The position numbers and the translations under genes are program-made. Below, one piece after another: positions 9,385 to 19,377 of a DNA stretch of 64,000 bases. A model generated the notes under the pieces. It was not told the DNA's origin and ran no database searches. It worked only from the letters and a program-made list of their open reading frames with translations. The DNA is from Fidelibacterota bacterium (GTDB lineage Bacteria > Fidelibacterota > UBA8477 > JABMPR01): contig JAERTG010000082.1 in assembly GCA_016845065.1 (NCBI GenBank), positions 1 through 64,000 of the forward strand, given 5' to 3'. The stretch's first letter is position 1. Each line of letters begins with the position of its first letter.

Positions 9385-12243
9385 TTAACCCTCATCCTTA
9401 TCGAGGTAAAAGAGTTCTTTGCTAGGTGCAAGGGGTCGACCCATCCAAAGCGGTCTTCTCAGTCCTTCAGGATGTGTTTCGCGCTCCTTTGCCCATCCAT
9501 TCCATTTTTTGAAATGAGCGAATGATTTCTCAGTATCAACAAAGACATCACCATACTTCTCACCATCGGCAGGTTTAGAAATAGCTACCTTCTGAAGCCA
9601 ACAATGGGCTCCGGATACGGGGTCGGGTTGCACAGCATGAGTAATATTCTGATGGACACCACCATCACGCCACCAGACCCTCTGGGTATCAGGATCGCTG
9701 GTCTTCCAGGGTTCGACACCTGCCGTAGTTTCCATACGCCATTTGCCATCACCCTCATTGCTGATATTCACCGTATTAGTCATGAACTTATTGCCTTGAT
9801 CCTGTTTACGGCGCCAGCGTCCTATGTGGTGCGAGCAAGCCACAACACTGGGTTTGATGGCCTCCGTAACCCACACTTTATCTACAAACCAGCCAATCTC
9901 CGTTTCGATTTTCAGAAGCTCACCGGTTTGAACACCAAGTTTCTTCGCATCCAGAGTATTTATCCAGATGGGGTTACGGTGGGCAATTTCTGTCAACCAT
10001 TTTGCATTTGCTGAGCGAGAGTGAATATGAGTTGGCAATCTGAAATTGGGTAGAAGTACACATTCATGCCGGCTTTCGTCCATGTGATCCTTATGAACAT
10101 GAGATTTGATATAGCCAGGGATGGCCTGATCTGGATACCCGAAATCAGCTGTGGTCTGAGAATAGAACTCCTGCTTCTTGGAAGGTGTTGGGAAACCACT
10201 GTATTTAACACCCTTGTCTTCTACTCCAACGATCTCCCCATCCTTGAGGACACTTCCATTAGCATTGACAGTGGTATTGGCACTGGCTTCTACTGACATT
10301 TCAGTTTTATTCTTCGAGTACAAACTTGGAACCACATTATATGCTCCATACTTGCGCATATAATCAAGAGCTGAGAGACCCTCTTTTGCAGCCGTCTCTT
10401 TTAAACCTTCAGTATGTTCAAATATGTACTGATAATATTCATCAATAGTGATTTTCTCGCCATCGCGGTAGGGACTCATGAAATGCTTTCGAATTCCCAG
10501 ATCGTCATCCTTATCAATTCGCCAGGACAATTCGATCCAAAACTCATCTTCCTCCCAGACCTCACCAGGATTCACTTCATGTGTGAATTCCACTTCCTTG
10601 CCTTCACGTCTGGCTTTTTCCCGCAGGACAGGTTGACGGAAGGCAATCCACATACCTGAATGGGTTTCATATGAATTGATGTCATGTCGCTCAGGACCAT
10701 GACCCATAGGCAAGACATAATCAGCAAAGAATGCTGTCTCGTTCCAGGTTGGAGTCAGGGCAACATGACAACCAACCGATTCATGATTAGAGAGCATCTC
10801 AATCCATGAAAAGCCATCGGGGTAAGTCCAGACAGGATTAAACACACGTGTAAAATACACATCCATTGAACCTCTCCCATCTTTGATGAGGTGGGGTAGA
10901 ATCTGACTCATTTCGAAGTGATTCAGTGTGTATTCCTTGGGAAAATGAAGTTCATTCCACGCTGGTGGACCAGGAGGCACATCAAAAAATTCCGGATGAA
11001 ACTTGTTCCAGGCACTTGGTGAGGTTCCACCAGGTGTTCCTACAGAACCAGTGAGGACATTGAGGAAGTGCAAGGTACGAGAGACTTGCCAACCCCCTAG
11101 ATTTCCGATGGAAGCGCCACGCCAGACATGGGTAGAAAGTTGTGATCCTGCCGATGCAACGACATGTGCGACTTCAACAATCTGTGAAGCTTCAATCCCA
11201 GCTTCCTTGGCTGCAAATTCTGGGGTGAATTCTGCATAAGCTTCAATGGTTTTCTCTATAAAGGATTCGAAAGTCTGGGGTGCTTCGGGGTGGACAGCCT
11301 TGAGGTATTCATCCCAGTTAACCCAGGTTTCGATGTACTCTCTATCATAGAGACCTTCCTCGAGAATAATCTTTGCCATGGCAAGAAAAACTGCTGCTTC
11401 AGAACCAGGATAGGTCGGCATCCAGTAATCCGCATGTGAGGCAGTATTAGAAAGACGGGGATCCATAACAATGAGCTTGGCACCCTTCATCTTGCCTTCC
11501 ATGATACGCTGCGCATGTGGATTAAAATAGTGACCTGTCTCCAGGTGGGAGCTCGCCAGAAGTATTACCTTTGCGTTAGTGTGATCCGGGGAAGGTCTAT
11601 CATACTTATGCCACATGGCATATCCAGCTCGGGCACCGGCTGAACAGATGTTTGTGTGTGAATTATGACCATCTACACCCCACGCCTTTAGTACGCGTTC
11701 CATATAGCCTTCATGACCAGGTCGACCAACATGGTAAACCACTTTGTCCCGACGCTCAGCCTTGAGTGATTTCTGAATCTTCGCACCAATTTCATCTAGT
11801 GCCTGATCCCAGGAGATCTGCTCCCAGTCTCCTGCTCCGCGTTCTCCTACTCTTTTTAAAGGATACAGAATGCGTTCTGTATCTGTAACCTGATTGATTG
11901 TTGCAGGACCCTTGGCACAATTTCTTCCCCGGGATCCGGGATGGTGAGGATTCCCTTCAAACTTCCGGATCTTGCCATCTTCCTTATCGATGTATGCCAA
12001 TAATCCGCATGCAGATTCACAATTAAAACAGGTCGTGGGAACGATACTATAGCGGCGCTCTTTTTTAACTGGCCATGCTTTTGGATCCAACTCAACAAAA
12101 TTATCCCACTCCTCTGGTTTGGGATATTTATAGAGAGGACGTGGTCCTTCAAGGGCATAGGATTCCGATGAATCTTCATGTTGTGAGATTTTGGGAATAA
12201 CGCCGATTCCTTCAGCAAATTTTTCTATAAACGATCGTTTCAT
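9385..12243 (-). CDS. molybdopterin oxidoreductase (CISM family), cytoplasm-facing; candidate SoeA-like sulfite dehydrogenase or sulfur reductase catalytic subunit
   Basis: A 952-residue DMSO-reductase superfamily protein. A [4Fe-4S] site is formed by Cys72, Cys75, Cys79 and Cys109 (CFNCESAC ... NCAKG), and Cys200 in HTNICSAGARAG is the likely Mo ligand. The Mo-bis-MGD-binding C-terminal domain follows (LLPNFRLPTHIHSRS). There is no twin-arginine signal, the N-terminus being MKRSFIEKFAEG, so the subunit should stay in the cytoplasm, as for SoeA sulfite dehydrogenases and unlike periplasmic PsrA/PhsA/TtrA. It ends a two-gene unit with the fused FeS/NrfD protein 12 bases upstream. Family placement is firm; direction (sulfite oxidation versus polysulfide or thiosulfate reduction) is inferred from neighbours. 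Confidence 0.88.
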   Translation of the reverse strand: MKRSFIEKFAEGIGVIPKISQHEDSSESYALEGPRPLYKYPKPEEWDNFVELDPKAWPVKKERRYSIVPTTCFNCESACGLLAYIDKEDGKIRKFEGNPHHPGSRGRNCAKGPATINQVTDTERILYPLKRVGERGAGDWEQISWDQALDEIGAKIQKSLKAERRDKVVYHVGRPGHEGYMERVLKAWGVDGHNSHTNICSAGARAGYAMWHKYDRPSPDHTNAKVILLASSHLETGHYFNPHAQRIMEGKMKGAKLIVMDPRLSNTASHADYWMPTYPGSEAAVFLAMAKIILEEGLYDREYIETWVNWDEYLKAVHPEAPQTFESFIEKTIEAYAEFTPEFAAKEAGIEASQIVEVAHVVASAGSQLSTHVWRGASIGNLGGWQVSRTLHFLNVLTGSVGTPGGTSPSAWNKFHPEFFDVPPGPPAWNELHFPKEYTLNHFEMSQILPHLIKDGRGSMDVYFTRVFNPVWTYPDGFSWIEMLSNHESVGCHVALTPTWNETAFFADYVLPMGHGPERHDINSYETHSGMWIAFRQPVLREKARREGKEVEFTHEVNPGEVWEEDEFWIELSWRIDKDDDLGIRKHFMSPYRDGEKITIDEYYQYIFEHTEGLKETAAKEGLSALDYMRKYGAYNVVPSLYSKNKTEMSVEASANTTVNANGSVLKDGEIVGVEDKGVKYSGFPTPSKKQEFYSQTTADFGYPDQAIPGYIKSHVHKDHMDESRHECVLLPNFRLPTHIHSRSANAKWLTEIAHRNPIWINTLDAKKLGVQTGELLKIETEIGWFVDKVWVTEAIKPSVVACSHHIGRWRRKQDQGNKFMTNTVNISNEGDGKWRMETTAGVEPWKTSDPDTQRVWWRDGGVHQNITHAVQPDPVSGAHCWLQKVAISKPADGEKYGDVFVDTEKSFAHFKKWNGWAKERETHPEGLRRPLWMGRPLAPSKELFYLDKDEG

Positions 12244-12255
12244 GGTTATTCCCCT

Positions 12256-13866
12256 TTAACTCAATGGAATCAGTTGTGGAACACGTACACGGACGAATTC
12301 TGTGATATAAATACCAGCAGCAGCCAGACCAGCCGCAACAAGCAGCATCATTGGGGTATCAAGTGTATAGAGCATAATTAGCGGAACCAGATTCCCCATA
12401 ATTATGCCGAACATAAAATGTCTGGAGTAGTAACCGGAGACCATAAGTTTGTGGGCCCGTTTGGTGTCCGAAGTAGCATGTGGAGTAATAAACTCAAGAG
12501 CTATCAAGGCGAGATTCACCAGCACTGCCAATTTTAAAATGGTCAGGGTTAATTCTGAGTTGGCATCACCCAGGAACAACCATGCAGCAGAACCAGCAAT
12601 GAGGGCATGTATCAGCATGTGAACTGGAGCAAGGTGACTGGCCCAAAGATCACGACCCTTGGCCTGAGCAAGCAAAAATGCGGTATAGATAGCAGTCAGG
12701 AGAGCCACCGGTGCTGTGAGATTAATGAGGAGGCTTCTGAAACCCAGATCAAAGTAATTGTCTGCTACCAGAGCAGTAATAACAGCACCAAAGACGGTGA
12801 TCAAATAACCGCCTCGAACTAGCCATGAAGACCAATTGGGTCTTAGCAATACATAAAGGAAACGATCAGGACGATCCAGATCCTTCACCAGTAATCCTCC
12901 AGTAAACAGCATAAAGACAATGGCCGTAATGTATCCATTTAACTCCAAAGCTGAATCAGCTGCTGCACCAAACCAGGAGGTCAGAGCAAGGACCAGGAGT
13001 AAGCCGGTTGCCACAGATTTTGTCCAGATATATGCTGGTACTTCCCAGCCCCAGAGGACACCTTTGGCAGGGGAATCATAAACTCTGCGGGTAGCGCTTT
13101 CCTCTTCCGTCTTAATTTCTTCCAGCACCTTATCAATGGCTCGTTGATCCGGTTCTGTTCCATTCTTGGCATGTGATTCGATAGCCATCTGAACCAGAAG
13201 ATCAGCCTGACTTTCCGTACGATTGCTCGTTGCCGCTGCAGGTGCGTGGTGTCCAACCCCGGAGGCTTGTTCACTCCAGATATAATCGTCACGACGCTCA
13301 GCATTTGAGGGTGTGAGCATATCAGAATCACCCTCGATGTAGTACAGGTTTGGAGTCGTGTCTTTCTCAGGCTTACGGGTCACCACATGTTCCATAGCCA
13401 CATAAGATGCAATCTTTGAATGGGCATCATCGAGATCACCCGAAATAATGGCTTCGGTAGGACAGATCACGACACAAGCGGGCTCGTAGCCGCTATCAAC
13501 GCGGTGCGCACAATAGTTGCACTTAGCTGCTGTGTTAGTCTCAGGATCGATATACAAAGCATCATAAGGGCAGGCCTGCATACAGGACTTGCAGCCAATA
13601 CACCGAGCGTTATCAAAATCTACGATACCATCCATGCGAGTATGCAAGGCTGACGTTGGACAGATCGTTGTACAAGGTGCATCCTCACAGTGGTTACAAC
13701 GATGCACAGAAAAGGAGCGACTTGCATCTGGATAGGCACCCTTTTCGATGTATTTGACGTGGGTGCGATTCACACCGATGGCAACATCGTGTTCAGACTT
13801 GCAAGCTACTGTACAGGCATGACAACCAATACACTTGCGATTGTCGATTACAAAGCCATAATTCAT
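12256..13866 (-). CDS. fused electron-transfer protein: four-[4Fe-4S] ferredoxin domain plus NrfD/PsrC-like membrane domain
   Basis: Residues 1-145 hold sixteen cysteines in four clusters (12/15/18/22, 57/60/65/69, 89/92/95/99, 116/119/131/135), the arrangement of DmsB/PsrB/NrfC subunits. A linker of about 120 polar residues follows, then residues 268-535 form an eight-helix NrfD-like quinone-reacting domain (GWEVPAYIWTKS, DLDRPDRFLYVLLRP). In most CISM enzymes these are two separate proteins. With the downstream molybdoprotein this gives a complete three-module enzyme exchanging electrons with the quinone pool. A strong GGGGGAGA ribosome binding site precedes the ATG. Confidence 0.9.
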   Translation of the reverse strand: MNYGFVIDNRKCIGCHACTVACKSEHDVAIGVNRTHVKYIEKGAYPDASRSFSVHRCNHCEDAPCTTICPTSALHTRMDGIVDFDNARCIGCKSCMQACPYDALYIDPETNTAAKCNYCAHRVDSGYEPACVVICPTEAIISGDLDDAHSKIASYVAMEHVVTRKPEKDTTPNLYYIEGDSDMLTPSNAERRDDYIWSEQASGVGHHAPAAATSNRTESQADLLVQMAIESHAKNGTEPDQRAIDKVLEEIKTEEESATRRVYDSPAKGVLWGWEVPAYIWTKSVATGLLLVLALTSWFGAAADSALELNGYITAIVFMLFTGGLLVKDLDRPDRFLYVLLRPNWSSWLVRGGYLITVFGAVITALVADNYFDLGFRSLLINLTAPVALLTAIYTAFLLAQAKGRDLWASHLAPVHMLIHALIAGSAAWLFLGDANSELTLTILKLAVLVNLALIALEFITPHATSDTKRAHKLMVSGYYSRHFMFGIIMGNLVPLIMLYTLDTPMMLLVAAGLAAAGIYITEFVRVRVPQLIPLS

Positions 13867-13920
13867 TATCTAGGTCTCCCCCGTGCTATGAATTTGGAAA
13901 CTCTCATTATTATGTATTGA

Positions 13921-15084
13921 TCAGGCGGATTGCTGGGCAGCATATGCAGAAGCTGCGCATTCATTCTTACCCAGATCCATGGAGGATTGTTCATCATCCT
14001 CTGGATCCAGCCAGCCGGCATTGACCTTGCGAATCTCAGCATACACATCGGGTTGTTTGCGAATGTTCTGCTTGATGAACTCCACAAAATCATCTTCACT
14101 TGAAATGCCATAAATCGCAGCATTACTATCCAGAATATTTTGCAGGGTATCCATGAATACCAGGTTTTCATCTGCTTCCGACCATTCGATGTAGTGACCG
14201 GGTAATATCTGTAGGGTTGGATCCATGGTCTTTATCTTTTGGGTCATGGTTTCATAAAGCATACCTGCCCATTCCACTGCCTTCCCACCCAGATCTGGGC
14301 GACCCAGTGAAACGAGAAAAATGGTATCACCAGAAACCACATAGGTGTCATCAATTATATAACAGGTACTACCTGGTGTGTGACCAGGTGAATGAACTAC
14401 TTTGATATCTGGCCCATTTGGAGAAGCCTTGAACACATCATCATTCTGAACGGCAGTATAGTCAAAGCTGGCACCCATAAAATCTCCGGAGTGTCCAAAG
14501 ACTTTTGATCCCACTGCTTTCGAGATAAAGCGACTACCACTGATATAATCTGCCTGAAGATGAGTTTCAAAGGTCTGGGTGATTTCGCAGCCATGTTCAG
14601 TGGCAAATTCATTATAAAAATCAAGGTTTCGAGATGGATCAAAAATAGTCAACTCACCTTCAGAGATGAGTCCCCAACTCAAGGATGCTTTACCCGGCCG
14701 GATAAACTGCCATACTTCAAAAGCTGCTCCCTCTTCATTGACCCTAACTGGTGCCAGCATGTTGCCCCAGGAAACGATACCCTCTCTTAGGTATCCTACA
14801 TCTTCAAAACCATGATTCTCCAGGATTTCTCCAACATATTGGGCTGAACCCTCTTTAGCACAAACCACTTTGATCTTCTTGTTCCGGGGAACCCTGGCAA
14901 CCGATGCTTCCTCTTCTTCCATAAAATCGAAATATGGAATGTTCAACATATCGACTTTATATGGGCTTTCTACCTGAAAACGCCCAAAGTCTTCCTCATT
15001 CCTCACGTCCAACAGCAGGAAATCGTCCTTCTGTCTAAGCCAGGTAAAAAGTTCATTAGCTGTGTAAGGGGTTAACATAATCAC
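13921..15084 (-). CDS. rhodanese - metallo-beta-lactamase fusion, persulfide dioxygenase (ETHE1)-like
   Basis: Residues 5-112 are a rhodanese domain with active-site loop CAKEGS (Cys75). Residues 120-310 are an ETHE1-like beta-lactamase fold. Its metal motif reads THLQADYISGS instead of THxHADH: His175 is kept, but the second His is Gln177 and the His after Asp179 is Tyr180. His235 (PGHTPGS) and Asp253 (SGDT) are present. Mononuclear iron in ETHE1 is held by the first His, the PGHT His and the GDT Asp, so the iron triad is intact while second-metal residues are lost. Expected reaction: glutathione or low-molecular-weight persulfide plus O2 to sulfite. It starts 10 bases after the interrupted TusA-like gene with a GAGGAG site. 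Confidence 0.85.
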   Translation of the reverse strand: MIMLTPYTANELFTWLRQKDDFLLLDVRNEEDFGRFQVESPYKVDMLNIPYFDFMEEEEASVARVPRNKKIKVVCAKEGSAQYVGEILENHGFEDVGYLREGIVSWGNMLAPVRVNEEGAAFEVWQFIRPGKASLSWGLISEGELTIFDPSRNLDFYNEFATEHGCEITQTFETHLQADYISGSRFISKAVGSKVFGHSGDFMGASFDYTAVQNDDVFKASPNGPDIKVVHSPGHTPGSTCYIIDDTYVVSGDTIFLVSLGRPDLGGKAVEWAGMLYETMTQKIKTMDPTLQILPGHYIEWSEADENLVFMDTLQNILDSNAAIYGISSEDDFVEFIKQNIRKQPDVYAEIRKVNAGWLDPEDDEQSSMDLGKNECAASAYAAQQSA

Positions 15085-15094
15085 TCCTCGTTAA

Positions 15095-15346
15095 TCATTT
15101 CATGCGCTGGATAAAGAAGTGTTTTCCTTGTCCAACCTGCTTTATATCCAGGAGTTTTTGTCCAGAGGCTCTGCACCAGGCCTTGAGATCTGGCTCACTT
15201 CAGGGGTGGGCACTTGAGACTTCAAGTATTTTACCCAATCCCATTCTTCTGATCTTCTGATTAGATCGAATGACTGGCATTCCCATCCCACAGGTACCTA
15301 GTTCAAGTAAGGCATCTGCAGTAAGGTCGGCTCCGGATAAACTCAT
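15095..15346 (-). pseudogene. TusA/SirA-like sulfur carrier with an in-frame TGA at codon 49 (interrupted, or recoded)
   Basis: An ATG directly abuts the DsrE stop (TAA then ATG, no gap). The frame encodes residues 1-48 (LTADALLELGTCGMGMPVIR ... KILEVSSAHP), meets TGA at 15202-15200, and continues as SEPDLKAWCRASGQKLLDIK ... HFFIQRMK to a TGA at 15097-15095, 83 codons in all. The two halves together cover one full TusA-like fold, with the sulfur-carrier Cys19, a central TxPGS-like loop and a C-terminal FFIQ strand, aligning with the intact TusA at 15881-16117. The TGA occupies the conserved Gly of the PGS loop (PGSKNDISAW in the intact copy), so a single GGA to TGA change explains it. No frameshift or other decay is seen. 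Confidence 0.72.
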
Positions 15347-15862
15347 TTACACAAATAGTGATATATCTGCATCTGCTGCAAATTCAAGAAAGCTAGCAGC
15401 GCCACCAAGTTCAACACCATCAATGAAGTCCTCAGTATCAAATCCAAATACATCCATAGTCATCTGACATCCAATCATGCGGACGCCCATTTCTACACAC
15501 ATCTCGCGCAATTCTTCAATACTGGCAACCCCTTTTTTAGCAAAAGTCTTCTTCATAAATGAAGTCGCCATGCTTTCATAGCCAGGAATATTATTCGCCA
15601 GAATATTTGGGATTGGCCATTCGATACTCTGGAAACCTTTAGGGCCAAATGGCATTTTCATAGGCATGGCTGGGTTGGTCTGGGGTGCCACGTTTGCCTC
15701 AATTTTCTTGTTCAACAGGGTCAATCCGTAAAAAGTGAAAAAGACACCTACTTCCATATCCATGGCTGCTGCTGTTGAAGCAAGAAGGAAGGGAGGGTAA
15801 GCCCAATCCAGGGTACCCTGTGAGGCGATAATCGCCAGACGTTTTGGTTTTGGTTCACTCAT
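15347..15862 (-). CDS. DsrE-family (DsrE2-like) sulfur-handling protein
   Basis: A 171-residue protein beginning KRLAIIASQGTLDWAYPPFLLASTAAAMDMEVGVFFTFYGL, the Rossmann-like start of DsrE2/DsrE-like proteins often annotated as peroxiredoxin-family. Cys in MIGCQMTMDVFG is the conserved candidate persulfide-carrying residue. Unlike many DsrE2 proteins no membrane pair is clear beyond the hydrophobic strands. Family members act in cytoplasmic sulfur relay with TusA and rhodanese. It sits 18 bases after tusA, with a GGGAGG ribosome binding site, and abuts the next gene. Confidence 0.85.
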   Translation of the reverse strand: MSEPKPKRLAIIASQGTLDWAYPPFLLASTAAAMDMEVGVFFTFYGLTLLNKKIEANVAPQTNPAMPMKMPFGPKGFQSIEWPIPNILANNIPGYESMATSFMKKTFAKKGVASIEELREMCVEMGVRMIGCQMTMDVFGFDTEDFIDGVELGGAASFLEFAADADISLFV

Positions 15863-15880
15863 AACTACATACCTCCCAGC

Positions 15881-16117
15881 TTATTTCTTCTGAATGAAGA
15901 AGACATATCCTTCATCAGTTTGATCGCTTGTTAAAAGTTCATGACCTGTTCGTGATGCCCAGGCTGAAATATCATTTTTTGATCCTGGATCCGTAGCAAC
16001 CATTTTTAATACCTGTCCACTGTCCATGGCATCAATAGCCTTTTTTGTTTTGATTACGGGCAGAGGGCAATTCAAGCCTTTGCAATCCAATACTTGATCA
16101 AAATTCAATTCACTCAT
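15881..16117 (-). CDS. tusA: TusA sulfur-carrier protein
   Basis: A 78-residue protein with the TusA signature LDCKGLNCPLPVIKTKKAI (carrier Cys in NCPLP), the DPGSKNDISAW loop and a C-terminal FFIQKK strand. TusA proteins carry sulfane sulfur as a persulfide between sulfurtransferases. The copy lies two bases after arsR and directly before dsrE, which points to dissimilatory sulfur transfer rather than tRNA thiolation. A good AAGGAGT ribosome binding site precedes it. Confidence 0.92.
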   Translation of the reverse strand: MSELNFDQVLDCKGLNCPLPVIKTKKAIDAMDSGQVLKMVATDPGSKNDISAWASRTGHELLTSDQTDEGYVFFIQKK

Positions 16118-16119
16118 TT

Positions 16120-16476
16120 CTAGATACTCCTTTTTGTCTCTGGAAAGATGTCCCCGACCTGCATATCACCTGAATCCAGGCTCAGTTTGCAGGAATGCAT
16201 GCATTCCAGAAGTTTGCGGATAAGATCACTGGCCAGAAAGTAGTAAAGCCGTGTGCCCTCCCGACGCGAAGTCAGGATATTGTGGCGTTGCATATATCGT
16301 AGATGCTGGGAGGTAATTGGTTGTGACAAACCAATTTCTCGTTGGATCTCTCCAACATTTCGTTCTCCAGTTTGCAGGTATTCTACGATTCGAAGGCGCT
16401 CAGGATGTCCCAAAGCCTTGAGAACTTTGGAGGCAACTTCGAAAAATGATATATGGTTTACTTCGTTCATGTTCAA
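16120..16476 (-). CDS. ArsR-family winged-helix repressor, probable persulfide or redox sensor of the sulfur operon
   Basis: A 118-residue protein with the ArsR helix-turn-helix (LGHPERLRIVEYL, VGEIQREIGLSQPITSQHLRYM) and wing (REGTRLYYF). Two cysteines, Cys92 and Cys96 in ECMHSCKL near the last helix, are the only ones and could form a thiol switch; the BigR/SqrR-type repressors of sulfide oxidation also use a Cys pair, though at different positions. It is first in the operon and a perfect palindrome sits in its promoter, indicating autoregulation. Metal sensing through these Cys is the alternative. Confidence 0.87.
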   Translation of the reverse strand: MNMNEVNHISFFEVASKVLKALGHPERLRIVEYLQTGERNVGEIQREIGLSQPITSQHLRYMQRHNILTSRREGTRLYYFLASDLIRKLLECMHSCKLSLDSGDMQVGDIFPETKRSI

Positions 16477-16510
16477 ATAAAATACAGCTTATATGACACT
16501 TTAGATCATC

Positions 16511-16538
16511 AATATAGCGTTTTCGCTATATATGTCAA
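16511..16538 (-). promoter_or_regulatory. promoter with embedded operator upstream of arsR
   Basis: On the minus strand TTGACA (16538-16533) and TATATT (16516-16511) form consensus -35 and -10 boxes separated by 16 bases. The perfect palindrome ATATAGCG-TTTT-CGCTATAT (16512-16531) fills the spacer and overlaps the -10. A dimeric repressor bound here would exclude RNA polymerase. Expected transcription start is about 28 bases before the arsR ATG. Confidence 0.8.
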
Positions 16539-16698
16539 GCTGAATATATGCGTTAATTAACCACTGCATGTTGCACATACTTATGGCGATTGATTTTGGC
16601 AAGCAAAAGCTTAGTTTGTAAGGTGCTTTTCATGAGAAAATATACCATTCCCTTACATCACTTATCTCTGTACAACCCTATAAATTTCAGGAGCCCCC

Positions 16699-19377
16699 AT
16701 GGCTAGCAAATCAAAATCACTAGATAGTTTTAAGACTCGGTCAACCCTGCATCTCAATGGTCATGCATATGAGTATTTTGATCTCTCAAAGCTAAATGCC
16801 GCATCCAAGTTAAGCAAGCTTCCCATTGCCCATAAGGTACTTCTGGAAAACATGTTGCGTTTTGAGGACGATATCACCGTAAACAAGGCTGATGTTGAAG
16901 CAATTTTGAACTGGGATGCCAGCCAGGCACCCTCCCACGAAATCCAGCTCAGACCCAGTCGCGTGCTTCTACAGGATTTTACAGGGGTTCCAGCCGTGGT
17001 AGATTTGGCGGTAATGCGGGATACAATGGCTGATCTGGGCGGTAATCCAGAAAAAATCAACCCTCTTCAGCCTGCTGATCTTGTTATCGATCACTCTGTC
17101 CAGGTAGACAAGTTCGGAAGCCTTCATGCTTTTTCTGACAATGCTGTCATTGAAATGGAGCGCAATCGTGAACGGTATGGATTTCTGCGCTGGGGCCAGG
17201 AAGCTTTCGAGAATTTCAGAGTAGTACCGCCAGACACCGGAATTATCCATCAGATCAACCTGGAGTATTTAGCACAGGTCGTTTTCAAAAAAGAAACTGA
17301 AGATGGAATCCAGATTTATCCCGACTCGCTGGTGGGAACTGACTCTCACACAACCATGATTAATGGATTGGGTGTTCTTGGCTGGGGAGTAGGTGGTATA
17401 GAAGCGGAAGCCGTCATGTTGGGTCAACCCATCTCCATGCTCATCCCTCAAGTTGTGGGATTCAAACTTACTGGAAAAATGGCAGAAGGAACTACTGCTA
17501 CAGATCTGGTACTTACCGTCGTTCAAATGCTCCGTGAAGCTGGTGTGGTTGGGAAATTTGTAGAATTTTATGGTGAGGGTATTGCCACTCTCAGCCTGGA
17601 AGACCAGGCAACCATCGCTAATATGGCACCAGAATATGGAGCAACCATGGGTTACTTCCCCGTGAATGCAGCAACCCTGGATTATCTGAAGTTTAGTGGT
17701 CGTGATGCTGATCAAGTAGCTCTCGTTGAAGCATATACCAAAGCCCAGGGCATGTTTTACGAAGCTGGTGTCGATCAGGCTGAATATTCAGCCAATCTTG
17801 AATTGGATATGAATTCAGTCGTACCATCCATTTCCGGACCGAAGCGTCCTCAGGATCGTATCGAGTTAAGTCAATCTAAGTCTACCTGGAGTCGGGATCT
17901 GGAAGTTCTCAAAGGATCCAGTAAGGGCGCAGCTGATGTTCAGGGTGCAGACTATAAGTTAAAGGATGGTGCCGTCGTGATCGCTGCCATTACCTCCTGT
18001 ACAAATACATCGAATCCCAGTGTGCTGGTTGGTGCTGGTCTGGTGGCTAAAAAAGCTGTTGAACTGGGGTTGGATATCAAACCCTGGGTAAAGCCCAGTC
18101 TTGCTCCTGGATCCAAAGTAGTGACAGATTACCTGGAAGCTGCTGGTCTTACGCCTTATTTGGATCAACTTAAATTCAATCTGGTAGGTTATGGTTGTAC
18201 CACATGCATTGGCAACAGCGGACCTCTGCCTGCTCCAGTAGCTTCTGCTGTAGAGTCTGGTGACCTCGTAGTGACCTCTGTCTTATCGGGAAATCGAAAT
18301 TTTGAGGGGCGGGTCAACCCGCATGTGAAGGCCAACTATCTAGCCTCACCTCCTCTGGTCGTTGCATACGCTCTGGCTGGAACCATGGATATTGATCTTG
18401 CAACAGAATCACTGGGCGTAGATAAACAAGGTAATGAAGTTTTCCTGAAGGATATCTGGCCGTCTTCAACCGAAATAGCTGAAGCAGTAGCTAAGGCTGT
18501 AAAACCAGAACAATTTATTAGCAAGTATGCCGACGTGTTTAGTGGCGATGCTGCCTGGCAAGGATTGTCAATACCTAAAGGTAATACTTTCGACTGGGAA
18601 GCAGATTCTACTTATATCCGCAAACCTTCCTTTTTTGAGGGCATGACTCGTGAACATGGTTCACTCAGTGACATTGATGATGCTCGGGCATTGGCACTTC
18701 TCGGAGACTCCGTAACCACGGATCACATTTCACCAGCAGGTGCCTTCAAGGCTGATACGCCAGCTGGCAAGTACCTCATTGCAAATGGAACTGACGTAAA
18801 AGATTTCAATTCTTATGGAAGTCGTCGTGGTAATCACGAAGTTATGATGCGGGGAACTTTTGCCAATATCCGCCTCCGCAATCTCCTCGCACCTGGTACT
18901 GAGGGTGGTTTTACTAAAAAGTTACCAGAAGGAGAAGTAACCTCCATTTATAATGGTGCTATGGCTTATAAAGCAGAAGGCACATCGTTGGTCGTCATTG
19001 CTGGAAAGGAGTATGGTACTGGCTCCAGTCGTGATTGGGCTGCCAAGGGTACATATCTCCTGGGGGTCAAGGCTGTTGTAGCTGAAAGTTTCGAGCGTAT
19101 CCATCGCAGTAACTTGATAGGTATGGGTGTTTTGCCCCTGCAATTCAAGGATGGCGAGGGTCGAGTGAGCCTAGGATTAACTGGTGAAGAAACTTTTTCC
19201 ATTGCTGGAATCTCAGATGGACTTAAACCAGGTAAGCAACTGGAAGTCAAATGTACCAGATCCGATGGAAGTCAATTTTCATTTATGGCAACAACTCGCA
19301 TCGATACTCCCAACGAGCTGGAATATTATCGGCATGGTGGGATCCTCCAGTACGTGATGAGGTCTTTGCTAGATTAA
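16699..19377 (+). CDS. acnA: aconitate hydratase A
   Basis: An 892-residue aconitase of the AcnA/IRP1 type: citrate to isocitrate in the TCA cycle, cytoplasmic. The [4Fe-4S] ligands are in [11 protein letters not shown] and [14 protein letters not shown]; the substrate-binding [10 protein letters not shown] and the C-terminal swivel domain [10 protein letters not shown] ... [15 protein letters not shown] are present. Length equals the family norm. AGGAG stands eight bases before the ATG. It is monocistronic, divergent from the sulfur operon and closed by a hairpin terminator. Confidence 0.97.

Follow-up and report, generated by a model that had tools for sequence, protein, structure and literature searches.

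The TusA-like gene that seems to be broken by an in-frame TGA in the window (the whole 64,000-nucleotide stretch of DNA analysed here) is most likely a working gene. Its TGA probably encodes selenocysteine (Sec), giving rise to a TusA-like selenoprotein that is found mostly among genes for sulfur metabolism. We are highly confident that the TGA is a Sec codon, decoded by SelA, SelB, SelD and tRNA-Sec together with a short downstream SECIS hairpin, and that the gene yields a small Sec-containing protein of the TusA fold. We read the codon in this way because the TGA is conserved, a Cys homologue exists, a SECIS-type hairpin follows, the host has the machinery, and purifying selection acts on both sides. 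An earlier note on this DNA had listed selenocysteine among several options; the conserved TGA, the Cys homologue, the hairpin and the machinery now favour it.

One TusA-like frame with a conserved TGA

Window positions 15346-15095 on the minus strand hold a single 83-codon TusA-like gene that starts with ATG at 15346, ends with TGA at 15097-15095, and has one in-frame TGA, codon 49. The Pfam TusA model (PF01206) matches it as one domain that spans the codon (37.4 bits, with one TGA inside) and, with the TGA read through, passes its cut-off of 28.6 at 39.6 bits. One TusA-like protein broken solely at 15202-15200 was what the earlier note had described, in a gene that abuts dsrE and is otherwise intact inside a sulfur operon. 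Both points hold: the TAA of DsrE2 and the ATG form TAA-ATG with zero gap, and the operon order is ArsR, TusA, DsrE2, TGA gene, rhodanese/MBL-fold, Fe-S/NrfD, molybdopterin oxidoreductase (Table 1). The good ribosome binding site reported for the downstream gene is present as GAGGAG, but the distance of 10 bases fits an alternative GTG start at 15084; the most likely start, ATG 15078, lies 16 bases past the stop.

Table 1. Coordinates of the TGA gene, its predicted elements and the neighbouring genes in the window.
Feature	Position	Strand	Remarks
ArsR-family regulator	16120..16476	-	
Ordinary TusA	15881..16117	-	CPxP motif intact
DsrE2 sulfur carrier gene	15347..15862	-	NF047629, 215.6 bits, cut-off 210; TAA touches ATG of the TGA gene
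TusA-fold selenoprotein gene (predicted)	15095..15346	-	83 codons and a stop; codon 49, TGA, taken as Sec
Invariant Cys19 codon	15290..15292	-	Possible partner of Sec49
Predicted Sec codon TGA	15200..15202	-	Residue 49, immediately ahead of helix 2 of the model
Predicted bSECIS hairpin	15166..15183	-	AGGCCUG-GUG-CAG(A)GCCU; 3-nt loop GUG after a 23-nt spacer; one bulged base
Rhodanese + metallo-beta-lactamase-fold protein	13921..15078	-	
4Fe-4S + NrfD-type membrane protein	12256..13866	-	
Molybdopterin oxidoreductase	9385..12243	-	Closest NCBIfam model: thiosulfate reductase PhsA, with a score under the cut-off

Could the TGA be a fresh nonsense mutation, or a sequencing error, in an ordinary tusA paralogue? 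The gene has a single TGA, and true decay is seen in some relatives (G186, G178, G226, G283, G295), both of which would suit such an origin. Against it, the identical TGA recurs in 25 genes that are intact apart from it, drawn from three or more phylum-level groups and many separate assemblies, and pN/pS stays low after the codon. In the alignment of homologues that the earlier note had proposed, codon 49 is TGA in 25 of the 26 intact family members found and TGC (Cys) in one, with decaying copies in some relatives. The 25 TGA genes come from 25 genomes, namely 17 Neomarinimicrobiota (the window's included), 5 proteobacterial or neighbouring genomes and 3 Nitrospinota. A clade with 25 TGA, one TGC and no Gly rules out chance and sequencing error, and a nonsense mutation or an error, both entertained in the earlier note, is thus hardly conceivable as the source of this codon.

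The same picture emerged from each set of genomes. Of 60 relatives searched, eight in addition to the window's genome encode the protein, and in every one of them it is interrupted by a single TGA at the same codon. A search of 245 genomes of the phylum yielded 18 matches (E <= 1e-8) with one TGA, at codon 49; 17 are intact, three of them (L010, L053, L054) with an apparent TTG or GTG start instead of ATG, and in G226 (L056) the 5' part is off frame. A two-motif scan of GTDB contigs returned 47 stretches and, from these, 19 loci that encode a relative, in Neomarinimicrobiota, Nitrospinota and MAG records titled Deltaproteobacteria, Rhodospirillaceae and Proteobacteria; TGA occupies the site in all 19, in a scan that is blind to a diverged Cys form and missed the one described below (L099). 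Two more intact TGA forms (G284, G288) were found among 52 genomes around the Deltaproteobacteria genome; G246 (L081) lies outside that set and its group assignment is uncertain. L086 breaks off at the TGA and is a repeat of L073: one MAG (record 408169) has this gene start on two contigs, probably as an assembly duplicate. In an IMG/VR scan 60 stretches matched a pattern and none encoded a relative.

Purifying selection acts both before and after the TGA. Pooled over 13 chosen, non-independent pairs, pN/pS is 0.072/0.550 over the 37 codons before it and 0.080/0.360 over the 34 codons after it. As to the decaying copies, those in G283 (L112) and G295 (L117) keep the TGA and have lost the CG-x-GMPV start, that in G178 (L131, G178:C42) is a broken gene with the TGA still there, and that in G186 (L055, G186:C11) has Ser at the site and an internal TAA, next to operon genes that are still similar to the window's. 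selA is still found in the genomes with decaying copies, G178 and G186 included, so the gene is dispensable in some lineages.

Codon 49 aligns with the Gly of D-P-G in ordinary TusA. The conserved Gly of the earlier note is therefore correct with respect to ordinary TusA and incorrect for the gene's own clade, in which no intact member has Gly. Nor does the position argue against Sec, as had been suggested, since the lone intact clade member without TGA has Cys. This member was found in the Nitrospinota group, where three of 24 genomes have the TGA form and one, G262, has an uninterrupted homologue. The Cys form (L099:1330-1731), a single sequence, reads GGCGFGMPVIRSF...DSSHLCSYPDIHAF, with TGC at the Sec codon; selA was not found in a search of its genome. 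In a tree of 37 rows chosen from the sequences retrieved, built on a short protein and with L099 on a long branch, L099 groups with two Nitrospinota TGA forms (support 93/82), and a 98/93 branch separates the family from 17 ordinary or TusA-like rows.

Decoding machinery and candidate SECIS hairpin

Is the host equipped to insert Sec? The search for selA, selB, selD and tRNA-Sec called for in the earlier note recovered the full set in the window's genome. SelA (518 bits) and SelB (348 bits) are both encoded on contig C130 with one Nramp-like gene between them, and a tRNA-Sec with anticodon tca is present. SelD (G000:C50:180859-181779) itself has an in-frame TGA, in AAGUAGKIGPGDL, at what we take to be the usual Sec place of this protein. 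This points independently to TGA being decoded as Sec in this genome. The same TGA in SelD speaks against a genome-wide reassignment of TGA to Trp or Gly, as does the use of TGA as the gene's own stop, likewise in several relatives. The sole point on the side of reassignment is the Gly at the aligned place of ordinary TusA. Global recoding, already dismissed in the earlier note, has a negligible chance of being true.

Of the 25 genomes whose TGA gene is intact, 24 have selA; with the decaying G226, G283 and G295 added, the count is 27 of 28. For the TGA genomes of the phylum the figures are 17/18 in all and 16/17 intact; for those outside that phylum set they are 6/6 and 4/4, two of these four with decaying copies. 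The sole TGA genome in which the search gave no selA match, G014, is 86% complete. Because selA is common across the phylum (175/245 genomes above the cut-off, 201/245 at E <= 1e-3), its co-occurrence with the TGA gene within the phylum carries little weight alone.

The earlier note had found no clear SECIS-like hairpin behind the TGA. A hairpin within published bSECIS limits does follow it. According to the available text of PMC13188914, the loop measures 3-9 nt with a G in the first two places, the stem 4-16 bp, the distance from the UGA 16-37 nt, and the MFE is <= -7.5; loop and spacer of the window hairpin (Table 1), its 7 bp with one bulge and a 60-nt MFE of -12.1 all lie inside this range. 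The 60-nt MFE is <= -7.5 at 23 of 24 loci, and the hairpin core is present in the MFE fold at 12 of 24. The motif CCUG-G-(UG/GU)-CAGR after the TGA is common to 19 distinct non-Nitrospinota sequences, and the outer stem bases often vary in concert, from AGG/CCU in the window to ACG/CGU, AUG/CAU and AAG/CUU in relatives.

With seven pairs counted and the bulge allowed at either of two places or absent, 120 of 133 pair cells are paired in the 19 distinct sequences (12 at 7/7, one at 6, six at 5). Neither 2000 column-wise synonymous shuffles (mean 113.3, sd 1.6) nor 2000 synonymous recodings that used the operon's codon usage (mean 76.5) ever reached this count; for the window sequence alone, 4.2% of synonymous recodings reach 7 pairs. 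When the structure was held fixed, 86.5% of cells were paired (1/500 shuffles as high) and the covariation score was 0.101 against a shuffle mean of 0.036 (0/500 as high). Three of the five measures are not unusual against shuffles: 1 of 7 pairs with two-sided change (483/500 as high), 5 cells with two-sided change (63/500) and 5 further pair types (151/500). Sliding the structure by +3 raised the covariation score to 0.107, but left 36.8% paired.

The three Nitrospinota genes have CAC-U-CGUG-GGUCU-CACG-GUG, with 7/7 pairs in a register of their own. At the same place, ordinary TusA genes (26 counted of 27 tried, one being without D-P-G) reach a mean of 3.3 of 7 in the main pairing (best 6, in one gene) and a mean of 2.5 in the Nitrospinota pairing (one at 7/7), and the Cys form has 1 of 7 pairs in both. 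Synonymous codon difference averages 0.23 across codons +6 to +13 (7 codons); elsewhere it is 0.65, 0.56 and 0.51 in the 5' bins and 0.38 and 0.47 in the 3' bins. The SECIS-type hairpin is thus supported by the synonymous-shuffle tests and by the dip in synonymous change, with modest covariation.

Two folds that RNAalifold preferred were rejected: one that spans the TGA, in which one of nine pairs changes on both sides, and a 4-bp hairpin that has no pair with two-sided change and no excess over shuffles. The SECIS-type hairpin was kept over both because the synonymous shuffles and the Nitrospinota set support it. An Rfam scan of 13000-17500 gave one sub-threshold snoR31 match, which we took as chance.

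Might the codon instead be a programmed stop, read through with an ordinary amino acid (Trp, Arg or Gly) and no selenium? A strongly conserved TGA context would be in keeping with this. However, the sole intact non-TGA member has Cys, not Trp, Arg or Gly, in a genome without a selA match; selA accompanies nearly all TGA genes, and the hairpin conforms to SECIS limits. We consider readthrough of this kind very improbable, and Sec remains the preferred reading.

Fold, gene neighbourhood and proposed function

Both the TusA domain and the TusA fold are present in the predicted selenoprotein, as judged by Pfam, model and structure match. The AlphaFold2 model (19 sequences, Sec modelled as Cys) has a pLDDT of 82.9 and the order b-a-b-a-b-b; helix 1 covers residues 23-33 with Cys19 in the loop ahead, and helix 2 covers residues 50-61 with residue 49 directly ahead. 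The best match among solved structures is E. coli TusA 3lvj (E 1.3e-6, TM 0.82). When the operon's ordinary TusA is aligned with it by eye and without gaps, the CPxP cysteine falls on Met21, and no intact member has a Cys-Pro in its CG-x-GMPV stretch. Because the catalytic Cys of CPxP is missing, we file the protein as TusA-fold and not as TusA. Cys19 is invariant in every intact member, the Cys form included. The two helices of the TusA fold start on the same edge of the sheet, and the active site may therefore have shifted from one helix to the other.

Two further observations concern protein architecture. The Nitrospinota Sec forms (L083-L085) are extended at the N-terminus by some 20 residues. 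A further TusA-like protein that lacks CPxP (GKKGCGDLA or GRKGCGELA) and keeps D-P-G occurs at L100, L101 and L102 (G259, G255, G256); near it lies a second TusA-domain match, within a frame of 249-266 codons.

Gene context was surveyed for 24 of the 25 intact TGA genes (G122 was left out). Sulfur genes adjoin 21 of the 24 loci, the exceptions being the three Nitrospinota loci. Context (i), at seven loci (the window, L068-L072 and G135, the last visible in part on a short contig), is TusA-DsrE2-TGA gene-rhodanese/MBL-NrfD-Mo; the decayed G186 copy occupies the same place in such a cluster. In context (ii), at nine loci (L073-L079, L010, G230), HdrC-HdrB-HdrA-HdrB-like genes are followed by the TGA gene and EtfB-EtfA and, where the contig reaches, by HdrD-like, GcvH-like lipoyl protein and lipoate ligase-like genes further along; L078 shows the Etf genes alone, L010, L075 and L076 show the cluster in part, and the names derive from families, mostly below NCBIfam cut-offs, and from similarity to L074. 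We take these clusters to resemble sHdr-lipoyl sulfur oxidation clusters, a comparison drawn partly from the available text of PMC11582611. G230 (L134, G230:C10:1-17000) joins the two contexts, having the Hdr-like/Etf cluster with the TGA gene as well as NrfD, Mo, DsrE2 and TusA within 17 kb.

Context (iii), at five loci (L080-L082, G284, G288), consists of DsrMKJOP, DsrE2 and the TGA gene, the Dsr names coming from NCBIfam for L082 and from similarity for the others; L081 is without DsrM since its contig begins further along. A YedE/TsuA-like gene lies directly downstream in L081, L082, G284 and G288, and none was seen in L080. In context (iv), the three Nitrospinota loci L083-L085, no sulfur gene was found among the neighbours scanned; dnaN lies near L083 and L084, and the other neighbours with a Pfam match are ammonium transporter, Bax1-I, pilin-type N-methylation motif, DUFs and murein peptidase. 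No sulfur gene was found among the scanned neighbours of the Cys form either, where DnaA, Rrf2, CarD and IspD genes lie. As contexts (i) to (iii) are sulfur clusters and (iv) is not, a sulfur role of the TGA gene is likely outside Nitrospinota.

What might such a protein do? Its proposed function is selenol-based handling of sulfane sulfur. The selenol of Sec49 would form a selenosulfide with sulfane sulfur (or thiosulfonate) supplied by DsrE2, TusA or rhodanese. Sec49 might then hand the sulfur to the enzyme encoded beside the TGA gene; or the sulfur might be released through a Cys19-Sec49 bond that is afterwards re-reduced. A fuller proposal, to which we give an even chance of being correct, is a TusA-fold selenoenzyme whose active site has shifted from the CPxP cysteine, where helix 1 starts, to Sec, where helix 2 starts, with the new invariant Cys19 as partner. 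It would perform a selenium-dependent sulfane-sulfur step that has been taken up by three kinds of dissimilatory sulfur cluster (DsrE2/NrfD/Mo, Hdr-like/lipoyl and DsrMKJOP) and has spread between marine phyla. It is possible, if rather doubtful, that Sec is real and the protein is no sulfur carrier but, say, an oxidoreductase acting on thiols or peroxide, or a protein that regulates the pathway. Such a role would suit the missing CPxP cysteine and the surroundings of the Nitrospinota and Cys forms, yet it sits poorly with three kinds of sulfur gene cluster elsewhere, two of them with DsrE2 directly upstream.

Relation to known families

The predicted selenoprotein has the fold and size of the TusA/SirA carrier (PF01206; E. 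coli TusA 3lvj), and its operon mates include DsrE2 and ordinary TusA. Unlike that carrier, it lacks the CPxP cysteine and has Sec at the Gly of TusA's D-P-G, and it scores far below the cut-off of the TusA equivalog NF001423 (20.2 of 78 bits). The YedF or 'SirA-like' selenium-linked protein (TIGR03527, NF008242) also combines a TusA-type domain with a link to selenium; YedF, however, consists of TusA plus DsrE domains, whereas the protein described here has 83 aa, one domain and a Sec codon of its own (NF008242, 20.4 of 79 bits). In the available text of PMC5322559 and PMC2432076, SirA-like/YedF is linked to SelD and is not called a selenoprotein. The DsrE-like and rhodanese-like selenoproteins in Table 1 of PMC13188914 are likewise predicted Sec proteins of sulfur handling, but belong to other families with the motifs UxxC, UxxS, UxxG and CxU. 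TsuB/YeeD, the TusA-like partner of the thiosulfate transporter TsuA (8k1r, 8j4c), shares the TusA-type fold, and a YedE/TsuA-like gene lies downstream at four of our loci; in contrast, a conserved cysteine does the work of TsuB, according to the available text of PMC11582611. The TsuB model NF041048 is not among the matches of the predicted selenoprotein at E <= 1, and no NCBIfam model reaches its cut-off.

TusA and SirA do not occur in the available text of the 2022 catalogue (PMC9312934) or of the 2026 review (PMC13188914), its 119-family Table 1 included. The open-licence literature was searched for a TusA/SirA-type selenoprotein and for selenoproteins of this lineage or pathway; as far as its text was available, we found no such protein described there. 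A Sec 'sulfurtransferase' is named without detail in the available text of PMC8318568 and could be a related protein. As the catalogues, the literature searched and NCBIfam give no such protein, we regard the predicted TusA-fold selenoprotein as a new family, absent from both catalogues compared.

If this is true, it adds a TusA-type selenoprotein family in which Sec occupies a site new to that fold, and it links the supply of selenium to the dissimilatory sulfur metabolism of marine bacteria that are uncultured. Sec genes like this one can pass for pseudogenes, and the sulfur operons of MAGs therefore deserve re-reading for in-frame TGA.
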